A stretch of DNA of 64,000 nucleotides from Salinimonas marina (GTDB taxonomy: Bacteria > Pseudomonadota > Gammaproteobacteria > Enterobacterales > Alteromonadaceae): NCBI RefSeq assembly GCF_015644725.1, contig NZ_CP064795.1, positions 1,920,501 through 1,984,500 on the forward strand, written 5' to 3'. Of this stretch, positions 19,184-44,033 are shown piece after piece. The notes below the pieces were generated by a model. That model searched no databases, was not told the DNA's origin, and saw only the letters and a program-made list of their open reading frames with translations. Both the position numbers and the translations under genes were made by a program. How positions within the stretch are numbered: position 1 is the first letter of the stretch; the number at the start of each line of letters is the position of its first letter.

Positions 19184-19219
19184 AATTACCACATTTATTA
19201 TCGTTATCGTTGAATTTTA

Positions 19220-21109: not shown

Positions 21110-21201
21110 GGTGCTCTTCCCTATTATTAAAATTATCGTTACAACCTGACACTGCAAGGTTAACAGAATGTTGCTCTTGCCTGTACGGCTAAGCACCGGC
21201 T

Positions 21202-21215
21202 TGCATACGTATTCA
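21202..21215. promoter_or_regulatory. LacI-type operator-like site 1 (TGCATACGTATTCA)
   Basis: This near-palindrome with a central CG is identical to the copies at 24288 and 43752. It lies upstream of the GH13-transporter-GH13 operon and also in the intergenic region of the divergent 201-residue gene. It is probably bound by the LacI regulator encoded at 14976. Confidence 0.75.
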
Positions 21216-21586
21216 GAACACTTTTTAGTCCCGGAAAAATGGCGTAAAGCCATCTGATAATGAGCGGCAAACAAAGTGATGGTGCTGGGGATCTGTCCAA
21301 AAATAAAATTTTGCTAAAGCGTCATTTATGTAGCTTGGCTATTGGAAATTTTGTTCTACACTGGAATATACAGAATATGCCTGAAACTCTTATTGCCAAC
21401 CCTGTAAAGGACTCCCACCGCTTATCAAGTGGCCTTTGAATATGGCACATTACGACCACCAGGCAAGGCTTCTGAGGCTCTGCGGCCCTGCAGTAACCGC
21501 GGCAGAACACACCCAAACACTCTTGAGTGCTGCACGTGCGGCTGTATGTTTAATCACGGTGTAGCCATAAGCACAAGGATTTATAT
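21216..21586. other. Leader/intergenic region before the 201-residue gene
   Basis: About 370 bp lie between the operator-like site and the start of the plus-strand unknown gene. The last 150 bp are GC-richer than the upstream part and hold several short inverted repeats, such as CACT-CTTG-AGTG at 21518-21529 and the palindrome GCACGTGC at 21532-21539. No open frame with a good start was seen. A structured 5' leader is possible but no known riboswitch pattern was recognised. Confidence 0.35.
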
Positions 21587-22192
21587 ATGCTTAACCCAAC
21601 CATTTTAGGGCTGGCTAATGCACTGAATGCCTTTCATCCGCGTTCGCCGGTCAGCTACCTGCAGGTGGCTCACTATTGTCGGAATGTGTCGTTGGATATT
21701 CTCAAAAAAATGACCCACGAGGTTGAATCCTCCTCAGGTCATAAGGGGCTCTCCCCAGAGGTGATTGTAGAGCAGGTCACCCCCGTCGACTTTCAGGAAA
21801 GCTATCTGTTGGCTGAAGTTCGCGGAGTGCCCCGTATGATGGGCCGTCATTTTGTCAGTATGCCCATCGATGAGCGCTGTAAAGGCAGATTGATGGCCAT
21901 GTCCCAGGGCTGCGCGCGCAATGATGTGCTTATGATATGCGACATCGCGCCGCACGCCCGCTATATTGCCCTGCCCTATGGCGTTAGCCCGGCGAAGGTA
22001 ACGGTAGAGGATCTGGACCAGTTTGATCACGGGGTTTCCGACATCGTCGTCAGAGTAGAGCGTGCTACTGTCACCTTCAGTAAGCTTTATGATGTGGGCG
22101 GCGCGCCCACTGAATTTCTCACCCAGAGTACGCTGCTTGAGGATATCTATGAAAATAACGGAATGCTGGTGTCAGCCAGTGTTCTGAGCTAA
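21587..22192 (+). CDS. Unknown protein, 201 residues, within the starch locus
   Basis: No family was recognised. The 201-residue product starts MLNPTILGLANALNAFHPRSP, has no signal peptide or membrane helix and looks like a soluble cytoplasmic protein. Notable stretches are VAHYCRNVSLDILKKMTHEVE, GVPRMMGRHFVSMPIDERCKG and DIAPHARYIALPYGVSP. It contains three cysteines, at CRN, CKG and CARND positions, plus one in MICDI. An AAGGA ribosome-binding site precedes the ATG. It is the only plus-strand gene between the two GH13 transcription units and is divergent from the operon at 21109. Codon use and composition look like those of its neighbours. Confidence 0.75.
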   Translation: MLNPTILGLANALNAFHPRSPVSYLQVAHYCRNVSLDILKKMTHEVESSSGHKGLSPEVIVEQVTPVDFQESYLLAEVRGVPRMMGRHFVSMPIDERCKGRLMAMSQGCARNDVLMICDIAPHARYIALPYGVSPAKVTVEDLDQFDHGVSDIVVRVERATVTFSKLYDVGGAPTEFLTQSTLLEDIYENNGMLVSASVLS

Positions 22193-22295
22193 ACGCTTTC
22201 GCTCAGTATGGGTAGACAATCAGTGCTGGCAACAAGAGCGCGTGATAAACGCGCCCTTGTTATCAGATTACCTTGCACCTGTATCTGTTAATACA

Positions 22296-24212
22296 TTACT
22301 CGCTGTGGTTAGCTGCAACGGTTAACTCGATAATCTGCGCGTCCGTGGCCGCCACATTTACCTGAACCTGTATACGGTTATGCTGCTGCATTAACGGTAT
22401 CGTTGTCCCGCTCAATAGCGAATATGCTGTAACCGCGGTGCCGGCCGCCAAACCGGTATGACTTATTGGAATATTCAGGTTTACCTGCTGTTCAGAGTCA
22501 GAAAAATTACTGAGCACCAGCAGCGCCTGGTGTGGGTCACTTCGCACAAAGCTATATACCTGGTCACCCTCACCTGATTTGACCGCCTGATTGGCTAGCA
22601 AGCTATGCATCTTGCCTTGCATGGCCGGATGATAAGCTGCCAGATTCAGTACGTTGGTATAAAAACGGCGTAAAGCCTGTTCATCATCGGTCAACTGTCC
22701 GCCATCAAACTTGCCATCGTTCATCCAACGCTGATGAGCAGGAACACCGGCATAATCGAAGATACTGGTGCGCGATGGATCACCAAATCCCATGTCTTCG
22801 CTGCCATCTTCTCCTACTTCCTGGCCAAAATACAACATGTATGGGGCATCACTTTTTAATGCTGAAACCGCCAGCGCCGGCTTCCCCCTCTGTGCATCAC
22901 CGGCAAAGGGTTCACTGGCAATTCGTTGCTCATCGTGGTTTTCCAGAAAGTGAAGCATGGATGACTCAATATCGCTGACCCGGGCCGCTACGTCATCCAA
23001 CGACGTTACTGAGTCTTGCTGCTGCATTACCCGTTTCAGGGTATCGTAAAACCCGACTTTATCGTACAGATAGTCCATCAGTCCGCGGTGCAGGTAATCC
23101 CGATAACGTTCAGGCTGATATACTTCGGCCAGCAAAAAGGCATCGGGTTTATGGTGCTTGATGGAGGCGTTCAAAAACGACCAGAATTCAACCGGTACCA
23201 TTTCAGCCATATCAAAACGAAAACCATCTACGCCTTTATCTAACCAGAACAGCGCAATTTCGCGCATACGATACCAGGCATCGGGAAGATCCTGGTTCTG
23301 CCAGAAAGCATAGTGTTTGGCATAAGGCTTGTTGGCAAAGTGCACAGGCAGTGCCGGAAAATCAAAACTTCCATCAGGTTTAACACCATAGTTAAGCTTG
23401 ACGGTCTCATACCAGTCACTCGCGCTGGGTTGAGCTGAGCGGGCGCCATTGCCGGTCCATTTTGCCGGCGTTTCATCAAACTGACCATCTGCCAGAGGAT
23501 GTGCGGCACCGCCCAGCGGATGAAAGTTTCCAGGATGCTCAGGCACTGCAAATGAGGTGCCCGGAACATAGTAAAAATGATTATCACGCTGGTATTGCTG
23601 AGCCGGGTCATCATTGCTACCCAACGCAGGAACGCCCGCTGGTGTATTGACAGATTCGTAATGCCGGGCGACATGGTTTGGCACAATATCAATGATCACT
23701 TTCATGCCGTGGGCGTGGGTACGTTTAATGAGGGCTTCAAACTCAGCCATTCTTCGGGCCGGATCCTGTGCTAAATCCGGGTCCACATTATAATAATCTT
23801 TTACCGCATACGGTGAGCCTGCCCGGCCTTTGATGACATCGGGGTCATCCAGACTGATGCCATAGGCGGTATAGTCGGTGGTGGTGACATGATGAGGCAC
23901 ACCGGTAAACCAGATATGGGATACCCCCAGCTGCCGGATTTCTGATAATGCGGTATCAGAAAAGTCAGCAAATTTACCGACGCCGTTTTGTTCTATAGAT
24001 CCCCAGGGCACATTATTACTGTTGGTATTCCCAAACAGGCGTGTAAAAACCTGATACACCACGGGCTTTTGCTGAGTCTGGGATGGGGCCTGAGTTATCG
24101 GGGCTGTAGCGGGCATGGTTTCACGCGTATCAGAGACATTGCAGGCACTTAGTATAAGCGTACAAACAGCGGTGAGCGAGAAACGAAGGCCTGAGGCAGA
24201 GATGGGGCGCAT
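22296..24212 (-). CDS. GH13 alpha-amylase lipoprotein
   Basis: The 638-residue protein has a lipoprotein signal ending TLILSACNVSD and a complete GH13 catalytic set. Region I is IIDIVPNHVARH, region II with the nucleophile is GFRFDMAEM, region III with the acid/base is LLAEVYQPE and region IV is FLENHDEQR. A C-terminal beta-sandwich (domain C) ends near NVAATDAQIIELTVAANHSE. It probably works on starch or maltodextrin as an outer-membrane-anchored or periplasmic enzyme. It is transcribed alone, with the operator-like site 76-89 bp upstream of its start. Confidence 0.92.
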   Translation of the reverse strand: MRPISASGLRFSLTAVCTLILSACNVSDTRETMPATAPITQAPSQTQQKPVVYQVFTRLFGNTNSNNVPWGSIEQNGVGKFADFSDTALSEIRQLGVSHIWFTGVPHHVTTTDYTAYGISLDDPDVIKGRAGSPYAVKDYYNVDPDLAQDPARRMAEFEALIKRTHAHGMKVIIDIVPNHVARHYESVNTPAGVPALGSNDDPAQQYQRDNHFYYVPGTSFAVPEHPGNFHPLGGAAHPLADGQFDETPAKWTGNGARSAQPSASDWYETVKLNYGVKPDGSFDFPALPVHFANKPYAKHYAFWQNQDLPDAWYRMREIALFWLDKGVDGFRFDMAEMVPVEFWSFLNASIKHHKPDAFLLAEVYQPERYRDYLHRGLMDYLYDKVGFYDTLKRVMQQQDSVTSLDDVAARVSDIESSMLHFLENHDEQRIASEPFAGDAQRGKPALAVSALKSDAPYMLYFGQEVGEDGSEDMGFGDPSRTSIFDYAGVPAHQRWMNDGKFDGGQLTDDEQALRRFYTNVLNLAAYHPAMQGKMHSLLANQAVKSGEGDQVYSFVRSDPHQALLVLSNFSDSEQQVNLNIPISHTGLAAGTAVTAYSLLSGTTIPLMQQHNRIQVQVNVAATDAQIIELTVAANHSE

Positions 24213-24287
24213 ACGTTAACTTTCCTAACAGAGATTTTCAGCGGATACCAAAAAGCATACCTGTTATAAGAAAGTTAACCTAGCATG

Positions 24288-24301
24288 TGCATACGTATTC
24301 A
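24288..24301. promoter_or_regulatory. LacI-type operator-like site 2 (TGCATACGTATTCA)
   Basis: This 14-mer is identical to the sites at 21202 and 43752. It lies between the GH13 lipoprotein gene it presumably controls and the stop of the upstream acyltransferase gene. Confidence 0.75.
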
Positions 24302-24307
24302 GCGTGC

Positions 24308-25201
24308 TTAGGCGGCGCGCTGTTCTTCGTTGATTTTGGTCAGGATAGACGGCTGATGACGGAATATGGCTCCGAAATTCGGCACTTCCTGTAGCTCGGT
24401 CATAATCTTACGTTGGAAACGTTGCAATGCCGGCGATACCTGTTGCATAAACTCAACCGGAGACAACTGATAGGCAGCACGCTGACCATGGTAATCAATT
24501 TCGTTACCCAGTTGTTCAAAATTGATACCCAGCATCCGTAGGCTTCGGGCCAGACGAGGCTCCATCATGACATAGACATTTTCGATGTCTCGCAACACAC
24601 AGATACTCGCGGCGAAAAAATATAAAGCCAGTGATAAATAGGGAAAGTTACGACCGGGTTTGTCTTTTTTGAAGCCGTTGTTCAGTGATTTTCCGGTGAC
24701 CGGAGACACATTGCTGTCGGACTGGCGGCGACGAAAACGCTTAGGAATAGCCAGACGGGAGATTTCACAAATTGAATGACGTGCATAGCGTTGAGGGCTG
24801 TTTTCATCCATCCGAATTGCGCTGGGGCAGTTTTGTTCGATGGGGAGTAACTGGCCAGGGTGTTGTGGCATAACCAGACGAATGGTTCCGGCACAATCTC
24901 CGGTGGCTTTGTGTTTGATATAGCAACTTAGCGCAAATTCATCAAACTCATCGAATTCCATTTTATTGGGGCGGGTATCTTCAAACCCCATTTCTTCGCA
25001 ATACACCTGATGGCGTGTTTTAAAGCAGGTACGTTGTTCATGTTCTTCGTTTGCCACAACCAGCGTAAAGTGTTCGAAAAAATGATCCGCAGCCGCATCA
25101 ATGATTTTATTCATTTTACGACGAACTACAGGCCGAATCATCTGCTTGATTCCAGGTACTTTATGTACTCTTTTAAATGCATTTAGCAAGCGACGTTTCA
25201 C
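24308..25201 (-). CDS. PEP-CTERM/exosortase system-associated acyltransferase
   Basis: The 297-residue protein resembles the GNAT-like acyltransferases that co-occur with PEP-CTERM/exosortase systems. It has an acyl-homoserine-lactone-synthase-like N-domain (TCFKTRHQVYCEEMGFED) followed by GDCAGTIRLVMP, ICEISRLAIPKRFRRR and a C-terminal YFFAASICVLRDIENVYVMMEPRLARSLR. The start is GTG with a GGGAG ribosome-binding site five bases upstream. No exosortase gene is in the window, but a PEP-CTERM protein is encoded 8 kb away at 32868. The acyl donor and acceptor are not known for the family. Family assignment is from sequence resemblance. Confidence 0.82.
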   Translation of the reverse strand: MKRRLLNAFKRVHKVPGIKQMIRPVVRRKMNKIIDAAADHFFEHFTLVVANEEHEQRTCFKTRHQVYCEEMGFEDTRPNKMEFDEFDEFALSCYIKHKATGDCAGTIRLVMPQHPGQLLPIEQNCPSAIRMDENSPQRYARHSICEISRLAIPKRFRRRQSDSNVSPVTGKSLNNGFKKDKPGRNFPYLSLALYFFAASICVLRDIENVYVMMEPRLARSLRMLGINFEQLGNEIDYHGQRAAYQLSPVEFMQQVSPALQRFQRKIMTELQEVPNFGAIFRHQPSILTKINEEQRAA

Positions 25202-25887
25202 TATGACTCCCGTTTATGAACTTATCGTTATAATTATCTCCTCTTACAAATTACCTTGGTTGCTTTGACTGCCGGGAAAAAGCGCAGGCAGAGTCAGTCT
25301 GGTTAAGAAAATGTCATGCCTGACGGCAGTGTCATTTTTGCTCAACAATTTCTAAGGCAACTTTTGGAAATTCTTTGAAAAAATGAGGATTAATTATTCT
25401 TTGTCAGAGTATATCAACTATTGTGCCAGTGTTGCCTTTTATACGTATAAAGCACTTTGATGTATTTTTTATACCAATACTGTCTGGCACCACGTAATGC
25501 TCCGGCGTCAGACCCCAGGTTTTGCTGAACCAGCAAAAAATGTATCAGCAAAAACAACAAGATCACATTCTTTACACGGGGTGACGTCGATAGCACTTAA
25601 AATCTAAAACAACGGAGATTAGCAAGAATATCCACGGTCGCTCTGACCCTGGAAGTAGACTAAAGGACAACGGAAAAAACAGTGCTTGCGTCCCGGCCCG
25701 GGGGTCTTTGAATTTAGGCTATGGAGATTTTATCAACGGCGGGGACACAAGGTGTATGATTTTGGCTTCACCCATTTTTATATAAGCCTGAAAAAACCGC
25801 GAAAGATGATGATAAACGACACTAACTATATGAATTTCATCTAACTTTTATATCTGTCTGCATTTGGTGACATGCATTGTTTTCGGG
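25202..25887. other. Gene-free 686-bp intergenic region
   Basis: No convincing gene was found. The region is mostly AT-rich and holds the 14-bp perfect palindrome TTTATACGTATAAA at 25438-25451. An imperfect inverted repeat lies around 25309-25340, and a GC-richer patch with a C/G run lies at about 25690-25710. The upstream promoter of the acyltransferase gene and the 3' flank of the methyltransferase gene must lie here. Confidence 0.5.
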
Positions 25888-26427
25888 TTATTTATTGTTC
25901 ACCTGTCCCACCCGGGTACGGTTGTTTTTATCCCGAGAGGCGCGAATCAGGTCATCGCCTGACCGGTATTGAGATTTGGCCATTCGATCGTATAACACCA
26001 CATTCACCGTAGCGGCCAGGTTCATGCAGCCACGGGTAGGTATATACACTACTTTATCGCACCAGCTCAAATCCTGCTGTGATAGCGAGCCATCTTCTGG
26101 GCCGAATACATAAAAGGCATTGTCCGGATGTTCAAATTCCGGCAGCGGCTGTGCCCCTTCAACTAACTCTATCGCTACTGTGGTGGCATTTTGGGGAATG
26201 ACCTCACTGAGCTGCTCAACCCCCACCGTAGGAATGAGCTTGTGCATCGCCTTGGTATCAGCATTAAACTCTTTTGCCCGCCGATAACGCTCGCCCGTAT
26301 AAAAAACACTGGTGGCACCATAGCAACCGGCGGCGCGCAGCACCGAAGCAACATTGACCGCTGACTTGGGATTACACAAACCTATGCTATAAACAGACGG
26401 TAGCGACAGTGGCTGAGAACAGGACAT
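25888..26427 (-). CDS. SpoU/TrmH-family RNA methyltransferase
   Basis: The 179-residue protein has the SPOUT knot pattern. It opens YSIGLCNPKSAVNVASVLRAAG, has YVFGPEDGSLSQQDL in the middle (motif 2) and ends with VVYIPTRGCMNLAATVNVVLYDRM (motif 3). It probably 2'-O-methylates a ribose in tRNA or rRNA using SAM. It is shorter than TrmH or RlmB and lacks an N-terminal RNA-binding domain, so the target cannot be assigned. It is 67 bp downstream of hutH on the same strand but lacks any link to histidine breakdown. Confidence 0.87.
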   Translation of the reverse strand: MSCSQPLSLPSVYSIGLCNPKSAVNVASVLRAAGCYGATSVFYTGERYRRAKEFNADTKAMHKLIPTVGVEQLSEVIPQNATTVAIELVEGAQPLPEFEHPDNAFYVFGPEDGSLSQQDLSWCDKVVYIPTRGCMNLAATVNVVLYDRMAKSQYRSGDDLIRASRDKNNRTRVGQVNNK

Positions 26428-26494
26428 GGCGATTTTATGCTCAAATTAAGGGCGCCAGAGTATGCCAGACTTAGCGCCCCGTGTCATGCCATTC

Positions 26495-28033
26495 TCAATC
26501 CAACACGCTGGTGGTGGTAAGCTCGCGCACCAGGTCTGCTAACCGCTGCTGACTGATCAACGCGGCCGAGGTTTCGATATCGGGCGCAAAATATCGGTCT
26601 TTATCATAAAAGCGCACATTGTCTCGTAACAGCCCGTGCACTTGCTGTAGCGGGGCGCTGGTTTTAAGCGGCGCCCGAAAGTCGATACCCTGCGCGGCGG
26701 CCAGCCATTCAATTGCCAGAATACCGGCGACATTAGAAAATATATCTGCCAGCCGCCGTCCCGCGAACGTGGCCATGGAGACATGATCTTCCTGGTTGGC
26801 CGAGGTTGGCAACGAGTCAATTGATGCCGGATGCGCCAGCGTTTTGTTTTCACTGGCCAGTGCGGCGGCGGTGACCTGGGCAATCATAAAGCCGCTGTTA
26901 ACCCCGCCATTATCAACCAGGAAGGCGGGCAGCCCGCTTAAGCCGCTGTCGATAAGCAATGCCATGCGCCGTTCTGACAGCGCGCCAATCTCGCTTAAAG
27001 CAATGGCCAGGTTATCCGCGGTCATCGCCACAGTTTCTGCGTGAAAATTGCCCCCGGACAAAATTACCTCGTCATCGGCAAACACCAGGGGGTTGTCAGA
27101 GACCCCATTGGCCTCGGTTTGCAGGGTCTGGGCAGCAAAGCGTAGTTGCTGTAACACCGCCCCCATCACCTGCGGCTGACAGCGCAAGGAATAGGGATCC
27201 TGAACTTTCTGGCAGTCCTGATGCGAATCCCCAATGGCTGAGTCTTGCAGTAATTCGCGAAACAACAAAGCTGTATCGCTTTGCGCCTGATGACCGCGAA
27301 CTTCATGAATGCGGCCATCAAAGGGAACCCGTGAACCCAGCGCGGCGTCCACACTTAGGGCGCCGATACCCAGGGCACTCAAATAAGCACTTTCGGTGAA
27401 AAACAACCCCTGTAACGCCAAAGCGGTGGAAGCCTGGGTGCCATTTAATAACGCCAGGCCTTCTTTGGGGGCCAGTGTCATCGGGACGAGACCGGCGGCC
27501 TGTAAGCCTTCCTGGGCGGGTTTACGCTGCTGGTTAATTAGCACCTCCCCTTCCCCTAACAGCACAACGCTCATATGCGCCAGCGGCGCCAGATCGCCTG
27601 AGGCCCCCACCGAGCCTTTGACTGGTATAGCAGGCCAGATTTGCGTGTTGTACAGGGTGATGAGCGCTTCAATAACGTCCAGTCGAATACCCGAATACCC
27701 CCGTGCCAGCGAGTTTATTTTAAGCAACATCAACAGCCGTACACACGACTCACTCATCAGCTCGCCAATACCGGCGGCATGGGACAGCACAATACTTTTT
27801 TGCAGTAGCGCCAGCTCTTGTTTTTCAATGCGGGTATTGGCCAGTAACCCAAAGCCGGTATTGATGCCATAGACCGTGCGGCCTTCCTCGACCACTTTTT
27901 GCACCAGTGCACAAGAGGCCTCGATAGCCTGGTGGGCCTCCCTGGCCAGTTTAATCGGCCGGTGCTGGCGCAGGCATTGGCGGCAATCATCCAGGGTCAG
28001 CTGGCCGGGGTACAATATAAACGGCGCCGTCAT
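26495..28033 (-). CDS. hutH: Histidine ammonia-lyase
   Basis: HutH removes ammonia from histidine to give urocanate, the first step of the Hut pathway. The 512-residue protein shows the prosthetic-group triad Ala-Ser-Gly in [15 protein letters not shown], which cyclises to MIO, with the tyrosine-bearing YGINTGFG and the conserved LNGTQAS. The chosen ATG overlaps the hutU stop as TAATG, supporting coupling; an in-frame upstream extension of 16 codons lies within hutU and was rejected. It is the last gene of the hutC-hutU-hutH arm. Confidence 0.96.
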
Positions 28034-29703
28034 TATTTTTGCTCCTGCATCGGTAAGTCCAGCCCATGTTGCTGAGCGCATTGCCGGGCCAGGTCATAGC
28101 CGGCATCAGCATGTCGCATAACGCCGCTGGCCGGATCGTTATGTAATACCCGGGCGATGCGCTCATCGGCTTCGTGGCTGCCGTCACACACAATCACCAT
28201 CCCGGCATGCTGACTAAAGCCCATGCCCACGCCCCCACCATGGTGCAGACTTACCCAGGTGGCCCCACCTGCGGTATTCAGCATCGCGTTTAGCAGCGGC
28301 CAGTCAGACACCGCATCAGATCCATCCAGCATGGCTTCCGTTTCGCGGTTTGGCGATGCCACCGACCCCGAATCAAGATGATCGCGGCCGATGACAATCG
28401 GCGCGCTGAGGATCTTATCCCTGACCATTTGATTAAATGCCAGTCCTAATTTTTGCCGTAAGCCCAGCCCTACCCAGCAAATACGGGCGGGCAGTCCCTG
28501 AAACTGAATTCGTTCCCGGGCCATATCCAGCCATTGATGCAAATGGGTATCATCCGGGATCAGTTGTTTTACTTTGGCATCAGTGTGATAAATATCCTGC
28601 GGATCCCCGGATAATGCTACCCAGCGAAATGGACCTATGCCCTGACAAAACAAAGGACGGATATACGCTGGCACAAACCCTGGAAAATCAAATGCATTAT
28701 CTACCCCGGTTTCCATGGCCATTTGCCGGATATTATTGCCGTAGTCCAGGGTGGCAGAGCCATTACTTTGCATTTTTAACATGGCTCTGACCTGGTCTGC
28801 CATCGACTCCCTGGCGGCCTTTACCACTGCATCAGGCTCTGTTTTTCGTAATGCTTTGGTTTTTTCCAGACTCCAGCCTTTTGGCACATAGCCATTTAGC
28901 GGATCATGAGCACTGGTTTGATCGGTCACCACATCGGGGGTGACTCTATTTTCAAGAATTTGTTGATACACTTCGGCGGCATTGCCCAGTAAGCCGATAG
29001 AAACGGGCTGATTATTACGCAGCGCCGCATTGAGCATTTCCTGCGCCTGTTCCCAGTTATGGGCTTTTTGGTCCAGATAGCCACTGGCCAGCCGAAAATC
29101 AATGCGACTTTCATCAACCTCCACGGCTATCATCGAAAACCCTGCCATTGTAGCGGCGAGTGGCTGAGCGCCGCCCATACCCCCGAGCCCGCCGGTCAGA
29201 ATCCAGCGCCCCCGACTATTGCCATTAAAATGGGTTCGGGCCACGCTCACAAAGGTTTCATAGGTGCCTTGTACGATGCCCTGAGAGCCTATATAAATCC
29301 ACGATCCGGCGGTCATCTGGCCGTACATCATCAGTCCTTTACGATCCAGTTCATTAAAATGCTCCCAGGTCGCCCACCGGGGCACCAGGTTGGAGTTGGC
29401 AATCAGCACCCGCGGCGCATTGGCATGAGTTGGAAACACCCCCACCGGTTTTCCCGACTGAATCAACAAGGTTTCGGTATCTTCAAGGCGCTGCAATACC
29501 TCCACAATTTTGTCGAATGACTCCCAGTCCCGGGCGGCCCTGCCAATGCCCCCATAAACCACCAGCTCATCGGGGTGTTCCGCTACCTGCGGATCCAGAT
29601 TATTCATAAGCATGCGCAGTATTGCTTCGCATTGCCAGCTTTTTGCCGTAAGCGTGGTGCCGGTAGCAGCTTTGATGGAGCGTTCTGGTTGATAACGGCT
29701 CAT
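28033..29703 (-). CDS. hutU: Urocanate hydratase
   Basis: The 556-residue protein converts urocanate to 4-imidazolone-5-propionate with tightly bound NAD. The full-length family pattern is present: the N-terminal [39 protein letters not shown] for NAD binding, the [10 protein letters not shown] region near the active-site cysteine and [17 protein letters not shown]. Its start overlaps the hutC stop by 4 bp (ATGA) and its stop overlaps hutH, so the three genes form one coupled operon. Confidence 0.97.
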
Positions 29704-30419
29704 AGGGCCTCCTGTGCGTCGCTAAAGTTAAGGTGACTACCCAGCCGATACCGGGCGCCTGGATGAGTTAAGGTAGCAATACTGACGATGCCCTGCCGGC
29801 AGAATGTGCGCCGGTGGATAGTAAGACAGGCCTCGCCAGGCTCGATATCAAGCAGCTGTGCGGTGGGGGCATCAGCCAGATGCGCTTCCACACTATGATC
29901 AGCTTCGGTAAGCGGTGCTACCCGGGATAAGTACGCATTCACCGAGTGCGATTGCAGCTGCTGCTGTAAAAAGTCCGGAGCCAAATCGGGATTAACCCAT
30001 CGTGTCTCCAGCTGTACTGGCTGATGATTCTGCCAGTGCACTAATTGACAATAATACAAGGATTGCGGCGTGCTCAGCCCCAGAAACCCGGCTATTGCAC
30101 TGGTTGCGGGCCGGGCCTCATGAGCCAGAACCTGCAGACGGTAGTGCTGATGGCGAGCTTCAATTTCCTCTTTTATGCCGGTGATGGTAAGCAGCGAACT
30201 CATGGGCCGCTGGTCGCTGACAAAAGTTCCTGCCCCCTGCGCCCGTGCCAGAATGCCTTCATCCACCAGCTCAGTAAGCGCCCGGCGTGCGGTCATACGG
30301 CTCACCTGGTGCACCCCGGCCAATTGGTTTTCAGAGGCAATTTTATCGCCCGGCCGCAACTGCCCAGTCTCTATCTGATGCAGCAGCGCCTGTTTTATCT
30401 CTACAAACCGTGGTTGCAT
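29700..30419 (-). CDS. hutC: Histidine utilisation repressor HutC (GntR family)
   Basis: The 239-residue regulator has an N-terminal winged helix typical of GntR proteins ([31 protein letters not shown], about residues 20-50) and a C-terminal UTRA effector domain, which in HutC binds urocanate. It is the first gene of the hutC-hutU-hutH operon and is divergent from hutI-hutG. A perfect palindrome of HutC type lies 44 bp upstream of its start, so it probably represses both arms, including itself. Confidence 0.93.
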
Positions 30420-30462
30420 GCGTGGCCCTTATGTTAATTTTATGTTACTTTAGCGAAATGAA

Positions 30463-30476
30463 CTTGTATATACAAG
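30463..30476. promoter_or_regulatory. HutC operator between the divergent hut operons
   Basis: CTTGTATATACAAG is a perfect 14-bp palindrome matching the published HutC-type operator core (TGTATATACA). It lies in the 100-bp gap between hutC and hutI. Confidence 0.9.
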
Positions 30477-30519
30477 TAGCATCTGTCCGCGCAGAGTAAA
30501 CTTCACAGGAGCAAACTGC

Positions 30520-31728
30520 ATGGCCGTAACTCTTATCGACAATGTCAATGTGATGAGCATGGATCCCTGCCAGACTGACAATGGCATCGAGCGTCAGACT
30601 CAGCTATGGATACAGGATGATAAAATTCTGGCGGTGGGCTCACCGCCAGCGCCGCCGCCAGTGCCGGATCATCATATTGATGGTACCAATAGGTGGGCGC
30701 TGCCCGGATTTATTGATTGCCATACTCATCTGGTGTACGGCGGCAGCCGCGCCGATGAGTTTCGTCAGCGGTTGTCAGGAACCAGTTATCAGGACATTGC
30801 CCGGGCCGGCGGCGGTATTCAAAAGACCGTACGCGATACCCGCAATGCCGGGGCTGAAGAATTATTGCAGCACAGTCTGCGTCGGGGCCGGCGCCTTATC
30901 GAAGAAGGGGTTACCACACTTGAGATAAAATCCGGTTATGGGCTGGATCAGCAAACCGAGCTAACCATGCTCGAGGTCGCGGCCAGGCTTGGATCCCAGT
31001 TGCCGGTTAATGTGTCGCGCACCTACCTGGGTGCTCATACCCTGCCGCCTGAGTTTGAAGATGATGCCGATGGCTATATTGACTTTGTCTGCCACACCAT
31101 GATCCCCACCATTGCTGCGGGCAAGCACGCCACTGCCGTCGATGTATTTTGTGAAACCGTAGGCTTTACCCGGGCCCAGGCCGAACGGGTCTTTGCGGCT
31201 GCACAACAGGCCGGCCTGGCCATTAAGCTTCATGCTGAACAGCTATCTGACAGCAAGGGGGCAGTGCTCGCCGCGCAATACCAGGCCTGCAGTGTTGATC
31301 ACATTGAGTACCTGGCCGCCGACGATATCCCTATGCTAGCGAAGGCCGGGTGCGTGGCCGTGCTGCTACCCGGCGCATTTTATTATTTAAGAGAGTCGAA
31401 GAAGCCGCCGGTTGCCGCCCTGCGACAACACCAGGTGCCGATGGCGGTGGCCAGCGATCATAACCCCGGCACCTCCCCCATCTGCTCACTGCTTACCTGC
31501 GCCACTATGGCCTGCCTCGAATTTGGTTTAACCTGTGAAGAAGCGTTACTTGGCATCACCAGCCATGCGGCGCAGGCACTTCAACTGTCAAATAAAGGCC
31601 GCTTGCGCGCCGGGATGGATGCCGATGTGTGTTTGTGGGATATTCGGGAGCCGGCTGATCTTATTTATGAAATCAATGGTTTCAGACCCACGTGTCGTTG
31701 GGTAGGAGGACAGTATGTCGATGGCTAG
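30520..31728 (+). CDS. hutI: Imidazolonepropionase
   Basis: The 402-residue amidohydrolase converts imidazolonepropionate to N-formimino-L-glutamate. Metal-binding motifs are GFIDCHTHLVYGG, the central KLHAEQLSD and ASDHNPGTSP, with SRADEFRQRLSG near the substrate site as in other HutI proteins. The ATG is preceded by an AGGAG ribosome-binding site. hutG follows with a 14-bp overlap, so the two are translated from one message. Confidence 0.96.
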   Translation: MAVTLIDNVNVMSMDPCQTDNGIERQTQLWIQDDKILAVGSPPAPPPVPDHHIDGTNRWALPGFIDCHTHLVYGGSRADEFRQRLSGTSYQDIARAGGGIQKTVRDTRNAGAEELLQHSLRRGRRLIEEGVTTLEIKSGYGLDQQTELTMLEVAARLGSQLPVNVSRTYLGAHTLPPEFEDDADGYIDFVCHTMIPTIAAGKHATAVDVFCETVGFTRAQAERVFAAAQQAGLAIKLHAEQLSDSKGAVLAAQYQACSVDHIEYLAADDIPMLAKAGCVAVLLPGAFYYLRESKKPPVAALRQHQVPMAVASDHNPGTSPICSLLTCATMACLEFGLTCEEALLGITSHAAQALQLSNKGRLRAGMDADVCLWDIREPADLIYEINGFRPTCRWVGGQYVDG

Positions 31729-32695: not shown

Positions 32696-32731
32696 TATAT
32701 TGTTGCTTTAATGTGCTGATTTTGATTAAGT

Positions 32732-32746
32732 TGTAAGCGCTATCAT
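32732..32746. promoter_or_regulatory. Operator-like repeat A upstream of the laminarinase operon
   Basis: TGTAAGCGCTATCAT, with the core AGCGCT palindrome, differs in one base from the copy 107 bp downstream. AGCGCT-centred palindromes are typical of LacI-family sugar-regulator operators. Confidence 0.6.
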
Positions 32747-32838
32747 TCGGGCAGTAGGTAGACGGAACTATTAAATCGCTTTGCAAAAGCGCCAACACTC
32801 ATTTGTAGCAGCGGATTGCGGGGTACTACACCAATCAA

Positions 32839-32853
32839 TGTAAGCGCTACCAT
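32839..32853. promoter_or_regulatory. Operator-like repeat B upstream of the laminarinase operon
   Basis: TGTAAGCGCTACCAT is the second copy and ends 14 bp before the start codon of the PEP-CTERM gene, close to its ribosome-binding site. Confidence 0.6.
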
Positions 32854-32867
32854 ATAAAGGAATACAC

Positions 32868-36379: not shown

Positions 36380-36380
36380 T

Positions 36381-36418
36381 AAAAAAAGGCAGAGTGTTGC
36401 ACCCTGCCTGATTATTTT
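36381..36418. terminator. Terminator after the laminarinase gene
   Basis: A GGCAG...CTGCC hairpin with an inner GTG/CAC stem, flanked by an A-run and TTTTTT, lies directly after the laminarinase stop. It can act for both strands and so may also serve the convergent TonB-dependent receptor. Confidence 0.8.
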
Positions 36419-36478
36419 TTGCTGTCGCAGCCTGCCGGGAAACTCCTGCGGGCTGCTTTCAGACACTTGCTAGCGCAA

Positions 36479-39400
36479 TTAGTAACGCGCCTCAAAAGAC
36501 AAGCGTACAGAACGCGGCGCCTGCCATGAGTAAGCTGCACCGTAATACTGGTTCACCGTGCCTTCTTCTATTTCATAGTGCTCGTTGGTGGCCGTTTCTT
36601 CCTGGGTGTTCAACAGGTTAAATACATTCACCGCCATGCGCATATCTACCCCTCGTAGGAGAAGTTGTATGCTGCGGAAACATCCAGGTTGAAAGTCCAG
36701 GGGGTACGACCCGCGGTACCACGTGGGCTGTAACGGAACTCTTTATCAGACTGGGCACAGACATCATCCCCGGTCAGCTCCACCGAACAGCCGGTACGAA
36801 TGTAATAGGTATCCCCGTAGCTGCCATAGACATTAGGATCGGTGCTGGGATAGCTTTGACCAAACGCCGTCAGCGGCCGTCCGCTTTGCAGCGAGGAGTT
36901 AAAGCCCACCACCAGGTTGTCCGACACATTGTAAGAACCATACAGTTTGAAGGTATGACGACGGTCATTAGGCTGGTAGCCATCCGCGCCATCCATCAGC
37001 GCCGGGAAGTCGAAGTCCTGAGTAATACCGGCATCGGCCTGGTCAATATCAGATTTCACCGCCCCTTCAAAGTTACCCACACTACGCGCCCAGGTGTACT
37101 GGAAATTCAGACGGTAATTTTCTTCTACATAATTCAGCTTCAGCTGAACCGATGTATATTCATTTTTACCTTCTGGTAACTGCAGGGTCTCGGCTGAATG
37201 GGTGGTTAACGAACCTTCATCGGCTTCGCCATCAAACATATCAAGTTTAGACTCGTCCAGTGCTTCGCCATCCCAGTAATAGCCATCTTTGAACCAGCTC
37301 ATATCTTCGCCCGGATTCAGCATCACACAATAAGGGTAAGCATAAATCCCGCAATAATCATCCAGCGCACTGGTCACTTCCCGATAGGTCCCGGTGACTT
37401 CGGCAGTCAGTGAGTCATTTACGGTAAACTGATAACCGAGGATAAATTCATCACGGGCGAAGGGATCGGCTTCCTGGGCCTGGAATGTTTCCTTAGTTGG
37501 GACTGCTGATACAGATGACGTGGTCTGCGAGTTTTCTACCGTGCCATTAACCGGATCAATACCGATGGGAGCCCCAGAGACAGAATCAATATCATCGAAC
37601 GTGAAGTAAGTCGTCGTATCACTTACGCCAGAGGCCGCACGGTAAATCGTGTTGTTAGCAATCGGCAGATAATAACGACCGTAATTACCATACAGTTTTG
37701 ATTCACCATTACCCAACACATCCCAGGTAAAGCCAAGACGAGGGGCAATATCGGTATCAAAATCGAACAATTGCTTGCCGGTGGTACCGTCACCTTCAAA
37801 CATATCTTTACGAATACCGATACTAAGCATCAGGTTATTGGTCACCTGCCACTTATCTTCTAAGTAATACGCGGTCAGGTTAGACTCAAAGGAGCCGCCG
37901 CCGTCGAAGATTCGGTCGGATACCAGGTCCTGGGCGCTGTTGCTGGTGTTGGTATACAGCTCACCATTGTCGCCCTGAATGGTAGAGCCAGACTCCAGGG
38001 TAAAATACCGATACGAATGCCCGCCCACCGGCTTGGTGATACGAGTAGTCGCCCGGTCCTGTTTATCGATACCGGCCGAGATCAGATGGTTGCCCCAGTA
38101 ATATTCAATGTCTAGACGATATTGGGTATTCTCATCAAAGTTATCGCCAAACGAGCCGCCGGGGCCACACTGAGGCGCATCACCGCCATCACGTTCATCA
38201 GCGATGGTGGGGCAATCCAGATTAGTTGGCGCGGTCTCGTACTGGGTTTCAATCTCACCCCACATCGCTGACACCGACAGATTGTCCGTCAGGTAACCAG
38301 TGTAGGTCAGACTCTGTGCTTCACCGCCCCGCTTTCTTAAAAACGAACCGCTGTAATCGCCGATAGTCTGAGTTTCAGGATCGTACTCAAACACATCTTC
38401 GGTGGCATCATTCTGGTCCGAATAGGCAAAGTAGCTTAAACGGTGACCTTCAATGATGTCCCAGTCAACTTTCGCGCCCCAGAACAAATTATCGGTGCCA
38501 TCGGACTCCCGGGTACGGAATTGGTCAGTGGCAGTATATTCGTCGGAACCTGAGACATAAGAAAAGTCTCTGGACAACGAGCGTGGGTTAACCAGGGCAT
38601 AGAAAAACAGTTTGTCTTCAATGATGGGGCCAGCGGCGGAAATGCTGTAATCCCATTCGTCTTTTTCGTCCAGACGATTGTCACGGAAAATCTTACCGGT
38701 ACCACCGCGGCCACGGTCAAAGGTACCTTCTTCCTGTAATGCAGACGGTTCCCAGTTGGCCGTAACATCAAAGCGCCATTCATTGGTACCGCTTTTTGTA
38801 ACGGCATTAATAAGGCCACCTGTGGCACGACCATATTCGGCAGAGAAGCCACCGGTTTTAACCTGGAACTCTTTGTACATTTCAAAGGGTACGGCGCCAC
38901 AACCTAGACCCTGACGGGTATCTGTCACTTCCAGACCATTGATATAACATGCATTTTCAGCTACAGAAGCGCCACCAAAGGAAGCGACGTTGCCAAAGCC
39001 TGAGTCGCCTTGCACCACGCCTGGTGCCAATAAGGCGACGGCGGTGATGTTACGGGCAATAGGCATACGGTCAATTTCTGCTTCACCTAAAATAAGGCCT
39101 GAGTCGGTGGATGATAAATCGATAGCCGAAATACGGGCTCCGGTGACTTCAATGCGCTCTGCATTCATCGCCGCGACGTTAAAGTCGGCCTGGCGATTAG
39201 AGCCCAGTGACACCCGAAGGGTGTCTTCGGCTACGACTGAGTCGCCACGTTTGATGACAATCTCATAGGTGCCGGTATCCAGTTTGGCTAAACGATATGT
39301 ACCATCATCGTTTACGGATACCGTGCGACTGAAGCCGGTCTCAGGATTTTTTGCGGTTACCGTCAGCTCACCACCACCTTGTGACTCCACCGTACCATAG

Positions 39401-39492
39401 ATGCTTGAGGTGCTACCGCCAGCCGCCATAACGGGGGCAGTTACGCCCAACGAGGTTCCTATCGCCAGCGCGATCAGGCTTTTTCTTAACAT
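36479..39492 (-). pseudogene. Oar-like TonB-dependent receptor, frameshifted near the C-terminus as sequenced
   Basis: This outer-membrane receptor of about 1004 residues has a signal peptide ending APVMAAGG. A carboxypeptidase-regulatory-like beta domain follows (YGTVESQGGGELTVTAKN), then a plug with RNITAVALLAPGVVQGDSGFG and a large beta-barrel. The frame breaks at the C4 run 36649-36652: the first frame stops at NFSYEG, and adding one G continues VDMRMAVNVFNLLNTQEE to the typical aromatic end SFEARY at 36479. It probably imports a polysaccharide fragment or peptide. It converges with the laminarinase gene, which makes laminarin oligosaccharides a plausible but unproven substrate. A GGGGAG ribosome-binding site precedes the ATG. 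Confidence 0.88.
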
Positions 39493-39853
39493 GTTATCTC
39501 CCCTGGAAGATGTCTATTCAACATATGTAATTATTTTTTTATCTTTATTACATAAGAGTAATGAAGTGCCGTCGATATTAAGCAGGGGATGGATTTAAAT
39601 TCAATGAGAAGTTCCACCTCTTCGTCGAATAAACATATTTTAAAGACAGGCTGCATATAGGCTGTTTACTATATAATCACCTCACGATTCCGTTGAATAA
39701 TTATTAAGATTCAATATTTTAAAAAATTATTGACAAGCTCTGACAGCGTTTAAAATTAAGACAAATAGCGGCTGTTTGTGAATCACACTTAAAGACTATC
39801 ATTTGAACTTTAAATACCAAGACACTAGATTTTCATAGGTGACTCTTAATAAA
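39493..39853. promoter_or_regulatory. Upstream region of the Oar-like receptor
   Basis: This AT-rich 360-bp stretch presumably holds the receptor promoter. An 8-bp inverted repeat TATGTAAT / ATTACATA (39524-39531 and 39547-39554, 15 bp apart) lies 32 bp upstream of the start. No gene was seen. Confidence 0.4.
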
Positions 39854-39902
39854 AAAGCCCCTTTATTAATCCGACTCATTATCGGCGTTATGAAGAGGCT
39901 TT
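39854..39902 (-). terminator. Probable terminator after the decayed exported-protein gene
   Basis: A 10-bp stem with one G-T pair (AAAGCCTCTT / AAGGGGCTTT on the minus strand) has a 29-nt loop and is followed by a T-run. It lies downstream of the decayed gene. Confidence 0.6.
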
Positions 39903-39930
39903 ATTTATTAGGTTTAATTTAAATTAAGTT

Positions 39931-40499
39931 CTATGTATCCACTAGCAAATACATTTCAGTGATGACAATAAATGGCTCATTGCCGTCGGGGCCGTAAATG
40001 CGAAATTCATAGTCCCCGGCGGGCTAGTCAATCACCAGATTATTGCTACTGGTGGCAAGTCGGTTGGCCGGATTGGTGGTGACAATTTTGGCTGTGGCAG
40101 TATTGGGGGTTGCCCAGATTAATCTGGCGTATTTTTATAGGTCAATCCACAGAGTCAGCGCCGCTGGTATAGCTTTCTTCGGGGACACTAAAATGATGGG
40201 GAGCGTATCCCCGGTTAAAGGTATCCGTGTTCCGAATTTGCGGTGTCAGTGCCTGCACTTTGGCGGGCAATGACACAGGCTCATAGCTTTGGTACACCTC
40301 GATAATACGGTTCTGTGGACTTTGCTCCTGACACACCGACGCCTTAGGTTTCAGTCGACAAAGATCGCCGATGGTATCGTCCAGATTGATGGTTTTTGCC
40401 GGGTTCTCATCAATGGCGGCAATATCCGCCAGGGGGAGCCGTCGCCATACCCGAAGTGACCAGCAAGGCTGTCACCATATCAAATTTGAATGCCTTCAC
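39931..40499 (-). pseudogene. Decayed gene for an exported protein of unknown function
   Basis: A reading frame can be followed from a GTG at 40499 (VKAFKFDMVTALLVTSGMATAPP, signal-peptide-like). It needs one added C at 40432-40436 and then runs LADIAAIDENPAKTINLDD to GADSVD. An in-frame TGA follows, then a frame change to IWATPNTATAKIVTTNPANRLA. A TAG sits where CAG would fit (VID*PAGDYEFRIYGPDGNE), and the frame ends at 39931. The C-terminal stretch resembles beta-sandwich modules ending in YGPDGN. Several independent lesions point to real decay, unlike the single homopolymer shifts elsewhere. It lies between two TonB-dependent receptors. The original function is unknown. Confidence 0.65.
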
Positions 40500-40755
40500 T
40501 GAACCCCATTCCTTGTTGTTATCACGCCGTCACTCGTCCTTTCATGTCATGCGACTTTTTACCCAACTAATCTTTTTAATAGCAATAGACGGCCGTATCA
40601 GAAACATACGCCTGCATTACATTTGCATGAATACAACAAACATTAGGGTGGCGATTAATGAGTCGTGTAGGCACGAAAGGAGAAAAGGCTTAGTAGCCTG
40701 TAATAACTAGCGAAGGAATAATCGCCATAAGAAAAGACAAAATAATAGCGCAGAT
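40500..40755. other. Gene-free region between the decayed gene and receptor 2
   Basis: About 250 bp without a supported gene. An open frame on the plus strand here has no ribosome-binding site and no recognisable protein character. Confidence 0.4.
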
Positions 40756-40788
40756 GAAAAAATCCCGTGGCAAGGCTGCCACGGGATG
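40756..40788 (-). terminator. Terminator of TonB-dependent receptor 2
   Basis: A perfect 11-bp stem ATCCCGTGGCA / TGCCACGGGAT with a 4-nt loop is followed on the minus strand by TTTTTT. It lies 20 bp beyond the receptor stop codon. Confidence 0.92.
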
Positions 40789-40806
40789 CGTTAGCTTAAT
40801 AACCTT

Positions 40807-43653
40807 TTAGAATTCGTAGTTGAAACCTAACAGGTAGTTAGCACCATACGCCTGATACAGAGTAACCTGACGGCCATCTGCGCCGGCTGACTGAATATCA
40901 TCTTCGTCGGTGATATTCTGCGCCTGCAGAGTGACCCGCAAGCCTTCCAGCGATTCGATTCCTGACTCACTGAAATCATAGCCAACCTGCGCATCGATAA
41001 AGGTACCGCCCTGGTTGGTGGAGTCAGACAATGCCAGACTCAGACCCCGGGTTTCGCTTAAGTAGCTGGAGCGCTTAGTTCCGGCCACACGAACTTCAAA
41101 GCCTTGGTTTTCATAAAACACCGTCAGGCTGTAGTTCTCATCTGACAAACCAGGAATACGGGTTTCGGTGGTGCCCGGCGCCGCATCTGCTTTACCATCT
41201 AAGAATGTGGCGCTGGCAAACATACCAAAGCCTTCCAGTGAGTCGTGAATCAGCTCACCAGGCAGACTGCCCTGCACTTCCCAGCCACGCACAAAGCCTT
41301 CATAACCGTCTTCAGGACGGGTACGCTCCCCGACTAACAGTTCCGGCGCTTCACCGGTTGAGCTTTTATGCACACTGGGGATATAAAACTCGGTAAAATC
41401 AGTTTCCACGGCGTTACTTCTGTGCCAGTTCTTAAGATCTTTGAAGAACCATGACACCGCTACATAACCGGTATCAGAGAAGTAGTTTTCATAAGCCAGG
41501 TCAATCTGATTGGCTTCATAGGGCTTCAGATTCGGGTTACCGGCACTGCCACTCCACGGCGTATTATCAATATCGGTGCTATTGATGCGGGCATCCTGGA
41601 AAGCAAAAGAAACCTGATTATTCGGCCGCATATCATCCATGCGCGGACGCGTCAGAACTTTGCTTAAACCCAGACGTACAAACTGACCTTCGGCAAATTC
41701 GGCGCTCAGGTTCAAAGTCGGCAACACATCGGTGTAATCAGCCCCGCCAGACACTGGCAGCGACTCTACAAACCCAAGTTCGTCTTTGGTGGCTGCAAAG
41801 CCGGTAGACTGTTGATCAGCGTGTACCACCTGAAGACCCAGGTTACCGCGGATGTAGATGTCGTCGAATTGGGTATCGATATCCAGCTTGGTATAGAAGG
41901 TAGTCAGCTTTTCTTCAACGGTATAGGTATCGCCCAGGCGACCAGTTTCAATTTGTTGTGCATCCAGCTCGTCATAATAACCGCTGTTGTATAAGCCCAG
42001 CGCATCGTAGGCCAGAATTCCATCGATACCGACAAAATCAAGAGATGTTACCCCCAATACCTCAGGAATAGCATCGCTTTGCGGATATTCAGGAGACACT
42101 AAAAAGGCGCCGTTGTTATCTTTAGACTTGGTACGGTCAGAGTAAATGGCACCAATTTCGATACCGCTGAAGATACCCCACTCTACAAAGCCTTTAGTGC
42201 TCAGACGTACAGAATCCAGTTCTTCTTCAAACACAGGCTGGTTCACAAACCCGTCCTGGCCATCCGAGGCAAATAACTGCTGACCATTTTCATCAACCAG
42301 TGACTGTCCCCATGGTTGTGGACCAGCCAGGCGGATCAGCGACGGATCTGTCAAATCAATGGTAGGCAGTGACGGATGATCGGCAAACATTACGCCTTCA
42401 CCGGTCATTTCCCAGGCTCGGGCCGTAAGAGGCCGGCCTTCAGTACCGGCGCGGCCAGTACCCGAATAGCTTTCTACATCGATGATGGTTTTATCCACTT
42501 TACCGGTAGAAACATCAGCATTAAGGGTCCAGTCGTCATTCAAAAGGTATTCGACATTCAGACCAAAAGTGGTCAGGTCTGCATCCTGTTGACGAACATC
42601 GTTGCGTATAACGCTATGAAAGCCGTCGTGGAAGGCGCGTGTGGCTAAACCATTGTCCACTTCAGTGACGGTATAGTCGACCCCACCCCATACCGGGCCG
42701 CCTTCTTCAACACCACGGCGGGCATCGTTTTCCAGAAAGTCGATATACAATGCATCCAGCTGCATATTCAGTTTGTCATTAGGCGCCCACTGGATAATAG
42801 CAGCGTAGGAGTCACGCTCCATCATCGCCGAACGGGCAAAGCTGTCATGCCCACCTGAAATAGCCGTTTCTTCACCTACGGTTACCCCTTCTGCGCCGGT
42901 GCCGGCTTCAGCATTCGGGTAACCCCAGCCACGAAATTGTGTTTCCTGACGCGGCGACTCCATGGTCGCATAAGTCAGTGCCACCCCTAAGGTGTCATCG
43001 GCAAACTGATCAATGTAGTTAAAGGAAACACGATGGCCATCATTATCATAGTCTGGGTTGGCCGCATCTTCGGCATTCTTCTCGTAGGTGCCATTGATAG
43101 TAAAGGTTTGCTCGGCGACCAAAGGCTTCACGGTTTGCAGATCAACCGAACCACCAATGTTTTGGGTGGTCATGCCTGCTTCAGGGGTTTTGTACACCAG
43201 AATATTAGAAATGATTTCGGTAGGGTATAAATCAAATTCCACCCCACGGTTATCACCCATACCTAACAGTTCACGTCCATTTAGTGATGTGCCCACATAG
43301 TTTTCATTGAAACCACGTACCGAGACGCCACTGGTACGGCCGTTGCGACGCTCGCCAGATAAGCCTGGCAGACGTGCCAGAGACTCAGCAATACTGGTGT
43401 CAGGTAATTTACCGATATCTTCTGCAGACAGTGCTTCTACAATTGAAGAATTGTCCATTTTGATGGCCTGGGCGCGCTGTAAGCTGCCCCGGATACCGGA
43501 AACTTCAATGACTTCCACCGGCGTGTCGCTGTTCGGACCGGTTGCGTCCTGCTGTTGTGCCAACACCGGGGTGCTCATCGCGGTCAGGCCACTGGCAACC
43601 AGGGCGGCTTTTATCAGATTTGGTTTAAACTGGTTCATGTGTAGGTATCCCAT
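40807..43653 (-). CDS. TonB-dependent receptor, Caulobacter/Xanthomonas type; probable maltodextrin uptake
   Basis: The 948-residue outer-membrane receptor has a signal peptide ending TPVLAQQQD. A TonB box-like VEVIEVSGIR follows, then the plug with AQAIKMDNSSIVEALSAEDIGKLPD in the TIGR01782 style, and a barrel ending in YGANYLLGFNYEF with C-terminal Phe. The first ATG has an AGGA site five bases upstream; a second ATG five codons later is possible. The same 14-bp operator-like site found before two GH13 units lies about 100 bp upstream. This makes it the likely outer-membrane importer of starch oligosaccharides (compare Caulobacter MalA). Substrate is inferred from that shared site. Confidence 0.9.
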   Translation of the reverse strand: MGYLHMNQFKPNLIKAALVASGLTAMSTPVLAQQQDATGPNSDTPVEVIEVSGIRGSLQRAQAIKMDNSSIVEALSAEDIGKLPDTSIAESLARLPGLSGERRNGRTSGVSVRGFNENYVGTSLNGRELLGMGDNRGVEFDLYPTEIISNILVYKTPEAGMTTQNIGGSVDLQTVKPLVAEQTFTINGTYEKNAEDAANPDYDNDGHRVSFNYIDQFADDTLGVALTYATMESPRQETQFRGWGYPNAEAGTGAEGVTVGEETAISGGHDSFARSAMMERDSYAAIIQWAPNDKLNMQLDALYIDFLENDARRGVEEGGPVWGGVDYTVTEVDNGLATRAFHDGFHSVIRNDVRQQDADLTTFGLNVEYLLNDDWTLNADVSTGKVDKTIIDVESYSGTGRAGTEGRPLTARAWEMTGEGVMFADHPSLPTIDLTDPSLIRLAGPQPWGQSLVDENGQQLFASDGQDGFVNQPVFEEELDSVRLSTKGFVEWGIFSGIEIGAIYSDRTKSKDNNGAFLVSPEYPQSDAIPEVLGVTSLDFVGIDGILAYDALGLYNSGYYDELDAQQIETGRLGDTYTVEEKLTTFYTKLDIDTQFDDIYIRGNLGLQVVHADQQSTGFAATKDELGFVESLPVSGGADYTDVLPTLNLSAEFAEGQFVRLGLSKVLTRPRMDDMRPNNQVSFAFQDARINSTDIDNTPWSGSAGNPNLKPYEANQIDLAYENYFSDTGYVAVSWFFKDLKNWHRSNAVETDFTEFYIPSVHKSSTGEAPELLVGERTRPEDGYEGFVRGWEVQGSLPGELIHDSLEGFGMFASATFLDGKADAAPGTTETRIPGLSDENYSLTVFYENQGFEVRVAGTKRSSYLSETRGLSLALSDSTNQGGTFIDAQVGYDFSESGIESLEGLRVTLQAQNITDEDDIQSAGADGRQVTLYQAYGANYLLGFNYEF

Positions 43654-44033
43654 TACTATCCTAAGACACCTGCCGGTATTTTTATCGCTTTGGCAGGCTA
43701 GATATAAAACAGGCTAGATGCTATCCCCAAGGCCCAACTTGCTCAATATTATGCATACGTATTCATCATTTTATTTATACATTCGATTTACACAAAATCA
43801 TGATTTATCGGCTTTGTTAACAGCAAGAAAACACATAAACCGCTGTATTAAATACAGTATTACAACTGCTTTAACACATTGCTGAGTAAATGATAAAAAA
43901 ACGTAATGCGCACCTGGCATCATCAGCAAAGCGACTCTACATTTACAGTCAGCAATCTATACCGCAAGGGCGATGTGGCGGGTTGTGTGAAGCAGTTATG
44001 GGGCAAGAATGACAATTTTTTGCGAACAGACAT
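43654..44033. promoter_or_regulatory. Promoter region of receptor 2
   Basis: This 380-bp AT-rich region lies upstream of the receptor. It contains the operator-like site at 43752-43765 and no gene. Confidence 0.5.
43752..43765. promoter_or_regulatory. LacI-type operator-like site 3 (TGCATACGTATTCA)
   Basis: This site is identical to those at 21202 and 24288. It lies about 100 bp upstream of the TonB-dependent receptor start, at a distance similar to the other two. Confidence 0.75.

Follow-up and report, generated by a model that had tools for sequence, protein, structure and literature searches.

LacI-family regulators of starch and maltodextrin use are a known kind of system (published accounts are cited throughout from excerpts). 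In Shewanella, the LacI-family protein MalR was predicted to control a maltodextrin regulon that includes a TonB-dependent receptor (PMC2996990), and it was judged a likely activator from mutant fitness (PMC5443562). In Xanthomonas citri, the starch locus XAC2595-XAC2602 encodes LacI, GH13, MFS transporter, GH97 and TonB-dependent receptor proteins; the transporter and the receptor are upregulated on starch, and the regulator is presumed to be a repressor (PMC10714752). A LacI-receptor locus for sucrose is also known in Xanthomonas (PMC1790865). Here, we analyzed a stretch of 64,000 nucleotides from the Salinimonas marina genome (contig NZ_CP064795.1, positions 1,920,501 to 1,984,500 of the forward strand; hereafter, the window), in which an operator-like 14-mer precedes three starch-related transcription units and a LacI-family gene lies in the same locus. 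Judging from sequence comparisons, we favor a reading in which this LacI-family protein, of the MalR type, binds the directional 14-mer and activates the starch genes; we put this reading, and with it the positive sign of regulation, at about two in three. Like the Shewanella MalR regulon as described, the S. marina system would bring a LacI-family regulator, a symporter-type transporter of the inner membrane, a TonB-dependent receptor and glucan enzymes together under one predicted regulator.

The 14-mer TGCATACGTATTCA occurred in the window as three exact copies in identical orientation. In the sense of transcription each copy reads TGAATACGTATGCA, and the genes that they precede are all on the minus strand:

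21202..21215, minus strand: candidate MalR-type site of the cyclomaltodextrinase-transporter-GH13 operon, reading TGAATACGTATGCA towards the operon.
19220..21109, minus strand: GH13 cyclomaltodextrinase-like enzyme (PF00128, PF09087, PF10438).
17708..19192, minus strand: MFS/GPH-type sugar transporter (PF07690, PF13347; under the TIGR01301 cut-off).
16018..17715, minus strand: GH13 alpha-amylase-like gene, in four pieces with frame changes at 17488-17500, 17285-17297 and 16500-16506.
24288..24301, minus strand: candidate MalR-type site of the GH13 lipoprotein gene, an exact copy of TGCATACGTATTCA.
22296..24212, minus strand: GH13 lipoprotein (PF00128; called a lipoprotein from its N-terminal sequence).
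43752..43765, minus strand: candidate MalR-type site of the TonB-dependent receptor gene, an exact copy, kept at the receptors of 31 of 35 relatives.
40807..43653, minus strand: TonB-dependent receptor (TIGR01782, 489.9 bits against a cut-off of 310).

An earlier note on this DNA had reported the three identical copies, and profile matches bore out its description of the LacI gene, the GH13-transporter-GH13 run and the receptor. Its statement that such a 14-mer is expected far less than once in 64 kb agrees with our calculation (~0.0005 copies, counting both strands at equal base frequencies). The distance that it gave, 75-110 bp before the start, came close to the measured gaps of 92 bp (21202 to the ATG at 21109), 75 bp (24288 to 24212) and 98 or 113 bp (43752 to a start at 43653 or 43638). 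A TTG start of the open reading frame 19220-21274, which would enclose the 21202 site, was judged unlikely, and the ATG at 21109, before a signal-like sequence, was preferred. The CG center that the note had likened to LacI-family operators is present, within a palindrome broken at one pair (2 of 14 positions). LacI-family operators are even palindromes with a central CG, lie mostly 30-140 bp before the start and are usually 16-22 nt long (PMC4052901); the CG center and the 75-113 bp distance agree with this description, whereas the 14 bp core is shorter. A GNAT/FeeM-like acyltransferase gene (24308-25201), also present in G112 and S. chungwhensis, lies upstream of the GH13 lipoprotein gene, with its end 6 bp from the 24288 site.

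In the whole genome (one contig of 3,765,169 bases), we found six exact copies of TGCATACGTATTCA against ~0.03 expected. Of the three copies outside the window, one, at 674375, precedes a gene for a small secreted protein with a pullulanase gene (TIGR02103) after it; the others lie at 1520529, before a GH31 alpha-glucosidase, and at 3165283, before an alpha-amylase. A one-mismatch copy at 1587713 lies between gapA and malQ, and malQ is followed by glgB-like and glgX-like genes. The earlier note had held beforehand that the 14-mer being common in unrelated promoters would speak against one regulon; the genome scan and its downstream genes revealed no copy at a gene unrelated to alpha-glucans among the six exact ones, and alpha-glucan uptake or breakdown was the target at all seven units examined (six exact copies and the one at malQ). 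Seven distinct places in the genome differ from the general site pattern, TGNATACGTATNCA, by one mismatch; among the five examined (all but 1804254 and 3541284), malQ was the sole alpha-glucan one. A reversed control of TGNATACGTATNCA gave no exact copies in the S. marina genome. Loose matches (up to three mismatches) were dropped as evidence, both in the window (10 against 6.4 expected, three of them the second-strand reading of the exact sites) and genome-wide (107 forward against 83 in the reversed control).

The site was also conserved upstream of receptor genes in other genomes. Relatives of the TonB-dependent receptor carried it within 400 bp upstream in 31 of 35 cases (35 of 36 loci had readable upstream DNA; L057, whose match begins at a contig end, was omitted), and 30 of these 31 sites match TGMATACGTATKCA without a mismatch and one with a mismatch. 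The 31 site-bearing receptors are 51-96% identical and come from Alteromonas, Salinimonas, Glaciecola, Aliiglaciecola, Gilvimarinus, Marinimicrobium, Aliikangiella and others; no site was present within 400 bp of four distant receptors (24-33% identical). Identical 14-mers can arise from repeats, yet coincidence or a dispersed repeat is a scarcely credible account of these copies and one that the data already contradict, given that their flanks differ, the exact copies all lie at starch genes, the site is kept at the relatives' receptors and the reversed control was near zero. Overall, these results support the single regulon of outer-membrane uptake, hydrolysis and import that the earlier note had proposed from three sites, and the alpha-glucan regulon is bigger than it had supposed. 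About seven transcription units would stand under one control: the receptor, the cyclomaltodextrinase-transporter-GH13 operon, the GH13 lipoprotein, the pullulanase, the GH31 alpha-glucosidase, the alpha-amylase and malQ.

At 39950-40571, the window holds three short remnants of a ~7 kb stretch found in Alteromonas lipotrueiana (L028 13084-20568), which contains a 1458-amino-acid pullulanase and a second receptor closely preceded by a site of its own (L028 13039); the stretch is missing in the S. marina window, and the species' own pullulanase lies elsewhere (~675 kb), with open reading frames in its vicinity that resemble transposases by eye. In some relatives (L047, L048, L049, L052 and L215), sites occur in pairs with a spacing of ~19-40 bp, possibly a sign of cooperative binding.

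The candidate regulator is encoded in the same locus, in two frames:

14976..15818, plus strand: LacI-family regulator, proposed MalR (PF00356), its frame broken at ~15776-15803.
15776..16000, plus strand: C-terminal part of the LacI-family regulator, encoded in a different frame and 80% identical to its G068 ortholog.

Its helix-turn-helix domain (PF00356) scored 61.7 bits against a cut-off of 27; PF13377 was also over its cut-off, yet the alignment ends at profile position 103 of 167, at the frame break. Four fetched orthologs are 341-344 amino acids long, and the nearest one found, 93% identical, is intact at 344. We followed the co-occurrence of regulator and site in 98 genomes of the family, taking E at most 1e-80 for an ortholog and TGNATACGTATNCA for the site. 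All 85 genomes with a LacI ortholog carried the motif, compared with 1 of the 13 without (Fisher p ~1.6e-14, relatedness ignored); the ortholog-bearing genomes had 1-10 sites each, 438 in all. Same-genus contrasts in three genera (g18, g20 and g36) showed site and ortholog gained or lost together. Among 369 genomes of the class, sites were present in 10 of 10 with an ortholog (2-7 each) versus 19 of 359 without, 18 of those 19 having a single site; G170, with a weaker match (E 1.7e-33, 33% identical) and no site, was scored as ortholog-free in this count. One class genome, G317 (64% GC, L202), the only one outside the family that was read gene by gene, carries three sites alongside LacI, GH13, MFS, GH97, receptor and GH13 genes and so shares the XAC2595-XAC2602 architecture of X. 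citri; the excerpted X. citri account contains no operator. All 42 orthologs examined share the identical recognition helix SQSTVSRAL, which differed in all four LacI proteins that were read out of the genome's six others.

Because motif and ortholog presence track each other through both the family and the class, the LacI-family gene of the locus is the likely regulator of these sites. Six further LacI-type genes in the genome, and the broken state of the locus LacI gene in the assembly, would fit a different transcription factor at the sites, with the linked LacI gene a bystander or a regulator of something else. We consider this very improbable, since site presence follows the ortholog in the 98 and 369 genomes, the three same-genus contrasts included, and the CG-centered even palindrome is of the kind found in LacI motifs (PMC4052901). 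The assignment of MalR is further in keeping with its apparent targets: sampling 21 genomes that carry the ortholog gave 73 sites with a called downstream start, and 62 of these stand before a relative of a glucan enzyme, a sugar transporter or a TonB-dependent receptor (receptors counted as uptake; 11 unclassified; 10 further sites without a called start omitted), versus none of five in sampled genomes without the ortholog (six more without a called start). We hold the regulon together with its LacI regulator to be highly probable.

Near 15776-15803, the reading frame of LacI is interrupted, and the C-terminal part resumes in another frame; the frame changes in this gene and in the distal GH13 gene were absent from the earlier note. 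Comparison of a 464 kb stretch with G068 covered 157 genes and revealed 24 frame changes in 19 of them, one in malR, three in the distal GH13 gene and the rest in 17 other genes; three of the changes are in genes at least 90% identical on both sides. Because so many of the compared genes are affected, indel errors in the assembly are the likely cause of the breaks in malR and the GH13 gene, and a simpler reading than real decay of the starch locus. Since the frame is broken in the assembly, direct expression from 14976 would yield a truncated protein. A possible further frame change near 19230-19347 is visible against G116 alone.

Next to the sites, receptor promoters share a repeated layout: TGAATACGTATGCA, 5 nt, TTGnnn, ~17 nt and a -10 element such as TAGCAT. 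The corresponding positions in the window are as follows:

43718..43746, minus strand: in-register sigma-70-like promoter of the receptor gene, TTGAGC (43741-43746), 17 nt, TAGCAT (43718-43723).
24254..24282, minus strand: in-register promoter positions of the GH13 lipoprotein gene, TAGGTT (24277-24282), 17 nt, TATGCT (24254-24259).
21168..21196, minus strand: weak in-register promoter positions of the operon, GTGCTT (21191-21196), 17 nt, CAACAT (21168-21173).

At the equivalent of the last of these, G112 and G116 carry TTGGTT and TAACAT, as does G068, where TAACAT stands one base farther away. The -35 elements are poor, with TTG kept and the remainder variable, and a consensus promoter scan returned no match at 43752.

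To measure direction independently of gene calls, we compared the two halves (ATGCA and ATTCA) of every asymmetric site. Among 340 asymmetric sites in the 98 genomes, TTG stood 5 nt past the ATGCA half at 114 and past the ATTCA half at 15. In 119 distinct sites from fetched loci, the counts were 72 versus 2 for TTG and 95 versus 4 for an in-register TAnnnT (offset 28 or 29). This set is rich in receptors, the loci having been fetched around receptors from the first-listed genomes, and it omits loci in which no site had a called downstream start; the family-wide counts were made to remove the receptor bias, and the TTG share then went from 72 of 119 to 114 of 340. The direction counts omit the sites of ten genomes without an ortholog. 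Collapsing sites more than 50% alike to 71 left 31 versus 2 for TTG and 49 versus 1 for TAnnnT. Among 84 collapsed representatives of the fetched sites, a -10 element was present in 40 of 40 with TTG and in 21 of 44 without, where about two were expected (background 2.2% per offset). Of 20 asymmetric sites between divergent genes, 17 had the -10 element on the ATGCA side and none had it opposite; for TTG the counts were 11 versus 1. At one site between divergent genes, in G016 (L106 1588-3012), a tryptophan halogenase gene (PF04820) faces away from a cyclomaltodextrinase-like gene, on the side without an in-register promoter; G058 and G060 have similar protein starts.

Activators that touch RNA polymerase need a weak promoter with the site at a constant spacing and orientation, while a repressor may sit anywhere over a promoter. 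Across the family, two features of an activator abutting the -35 element (class II-like) were found, a fixed distance upstream of -35 and a single orientation. We reasoned that activation is likelier than simple repression because the site is directional and stands in fixed register upstream of -35 in many relatives. The same regulon and regulator could also operate with MalR as a classical repressor released by maltodextrin, in which case spacing and direction would be ancestral or would come from blocking of -35. Almost all of the LacI-family proteins named in PMC4052901 are described as repressors, and XAC2595 of the similar X. citri locus is presumed to be one (PMC10714752); a bound dimer would extend to a few bp from -35, and a repressor tolerates the two sites of the S. 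marina genome that point away from their genes. However, the 5-nt TTG spacing recurs across target families (receptors, transporter, cyclomaltodextrinase and GH13) despite diverged spacers, and a symmetric roadblock needs no direction, yet the family-wide count was strongly one-sided. We regard repression as unlikely, though well short of negligible.

Several observations weigh against activation. No in-register TTG is present at 226 of the 340 family sites. In the S. marina genome, TTG is in register at one of the six exact sites (43752) and the -10 element at two (43752 and 24288), leaving the full module at 43752 only. At the pullulanase, the site is oriented away from the gene and no promoter is in register; at malQ, the ATGCA-like half is turned towards gapA; and downstream of the 21202 site, before the operon begins, there is an out-of-register consensus promoter-like match (21152-21123), although the number of such matches (5) is about what chance would give (4.4 expected). 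Inheritance of one ancestral promoter could preserve the spacing without an activator, and the regulator itself is frame-broken in the S. marina assembly. Finally, the Shewanella sites reportedly lie more than 300 bp upstream of the malT start site, as against ~-47.5 from the inferred start here, the two systems being compared by description.

In the activation model that we prefer, MalR would sense internal maltodextrin, bind the site and help RNA polymerase start from a position abutting -35. The ATGCA half lies 5 nt upstream of a weak -35 element in many family promoters, with the site center near -47.5 if transcription starts 7 nt beyond the -10 element. We infer from sequence that the LacI protein of the locus binds the site and acts positively; maltodextrin is the proposed signal because of the target genes.

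Other LacI-family proteins, E. coli Cra and Bacillus CcpA, also activate some genes. They share the LacI-family DNA binding domain and this activity with the proposed MalR, but are global dual regulators, whereas the proposed MalR would be dedicated to sugar use and read a directional site in fixed register. Our literature search found no papers on activation by Cra. A positive LacI-type regulator of a Xanthomonas amylase has reportedly been described, though the search did not find it among the matches listed. Cra is also treated in PMC4052901. We found no description, in literature searched outside RegPrecise, supplements and figures, of a directional site in fixed register together with a reading of sign, and none of the site in the titles and abstracts among the matches listed for the core ATACGTAT with LacI/maltose or TonB-dependent/operator. 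The directional module is the new part of an otherwise known kind of regulon.

The observation of three sites becomes a testable rule for starch regulons across the Alteromonas family, in which the site serves to locate the genes and its orientation often points to the promoter. On balance, we would also expect a whole clade of LacI-family proteins across many Gammaproteobacteria to be dedicated sugar activators that read an asymmetric operator. If so, the operator sequence alone would tell the direction of transcription, with orientation and the 5-nt distance to -35 kept, and the asymmetric half-sites raise the question of how RNA polymerase reads a symmetric dimer with direction. If the positive sign is true, LacI-family regulators presumed to be repressors in marine starch degraders would be mislabeled, and perhaps those of similar Xanthomonas loci too.

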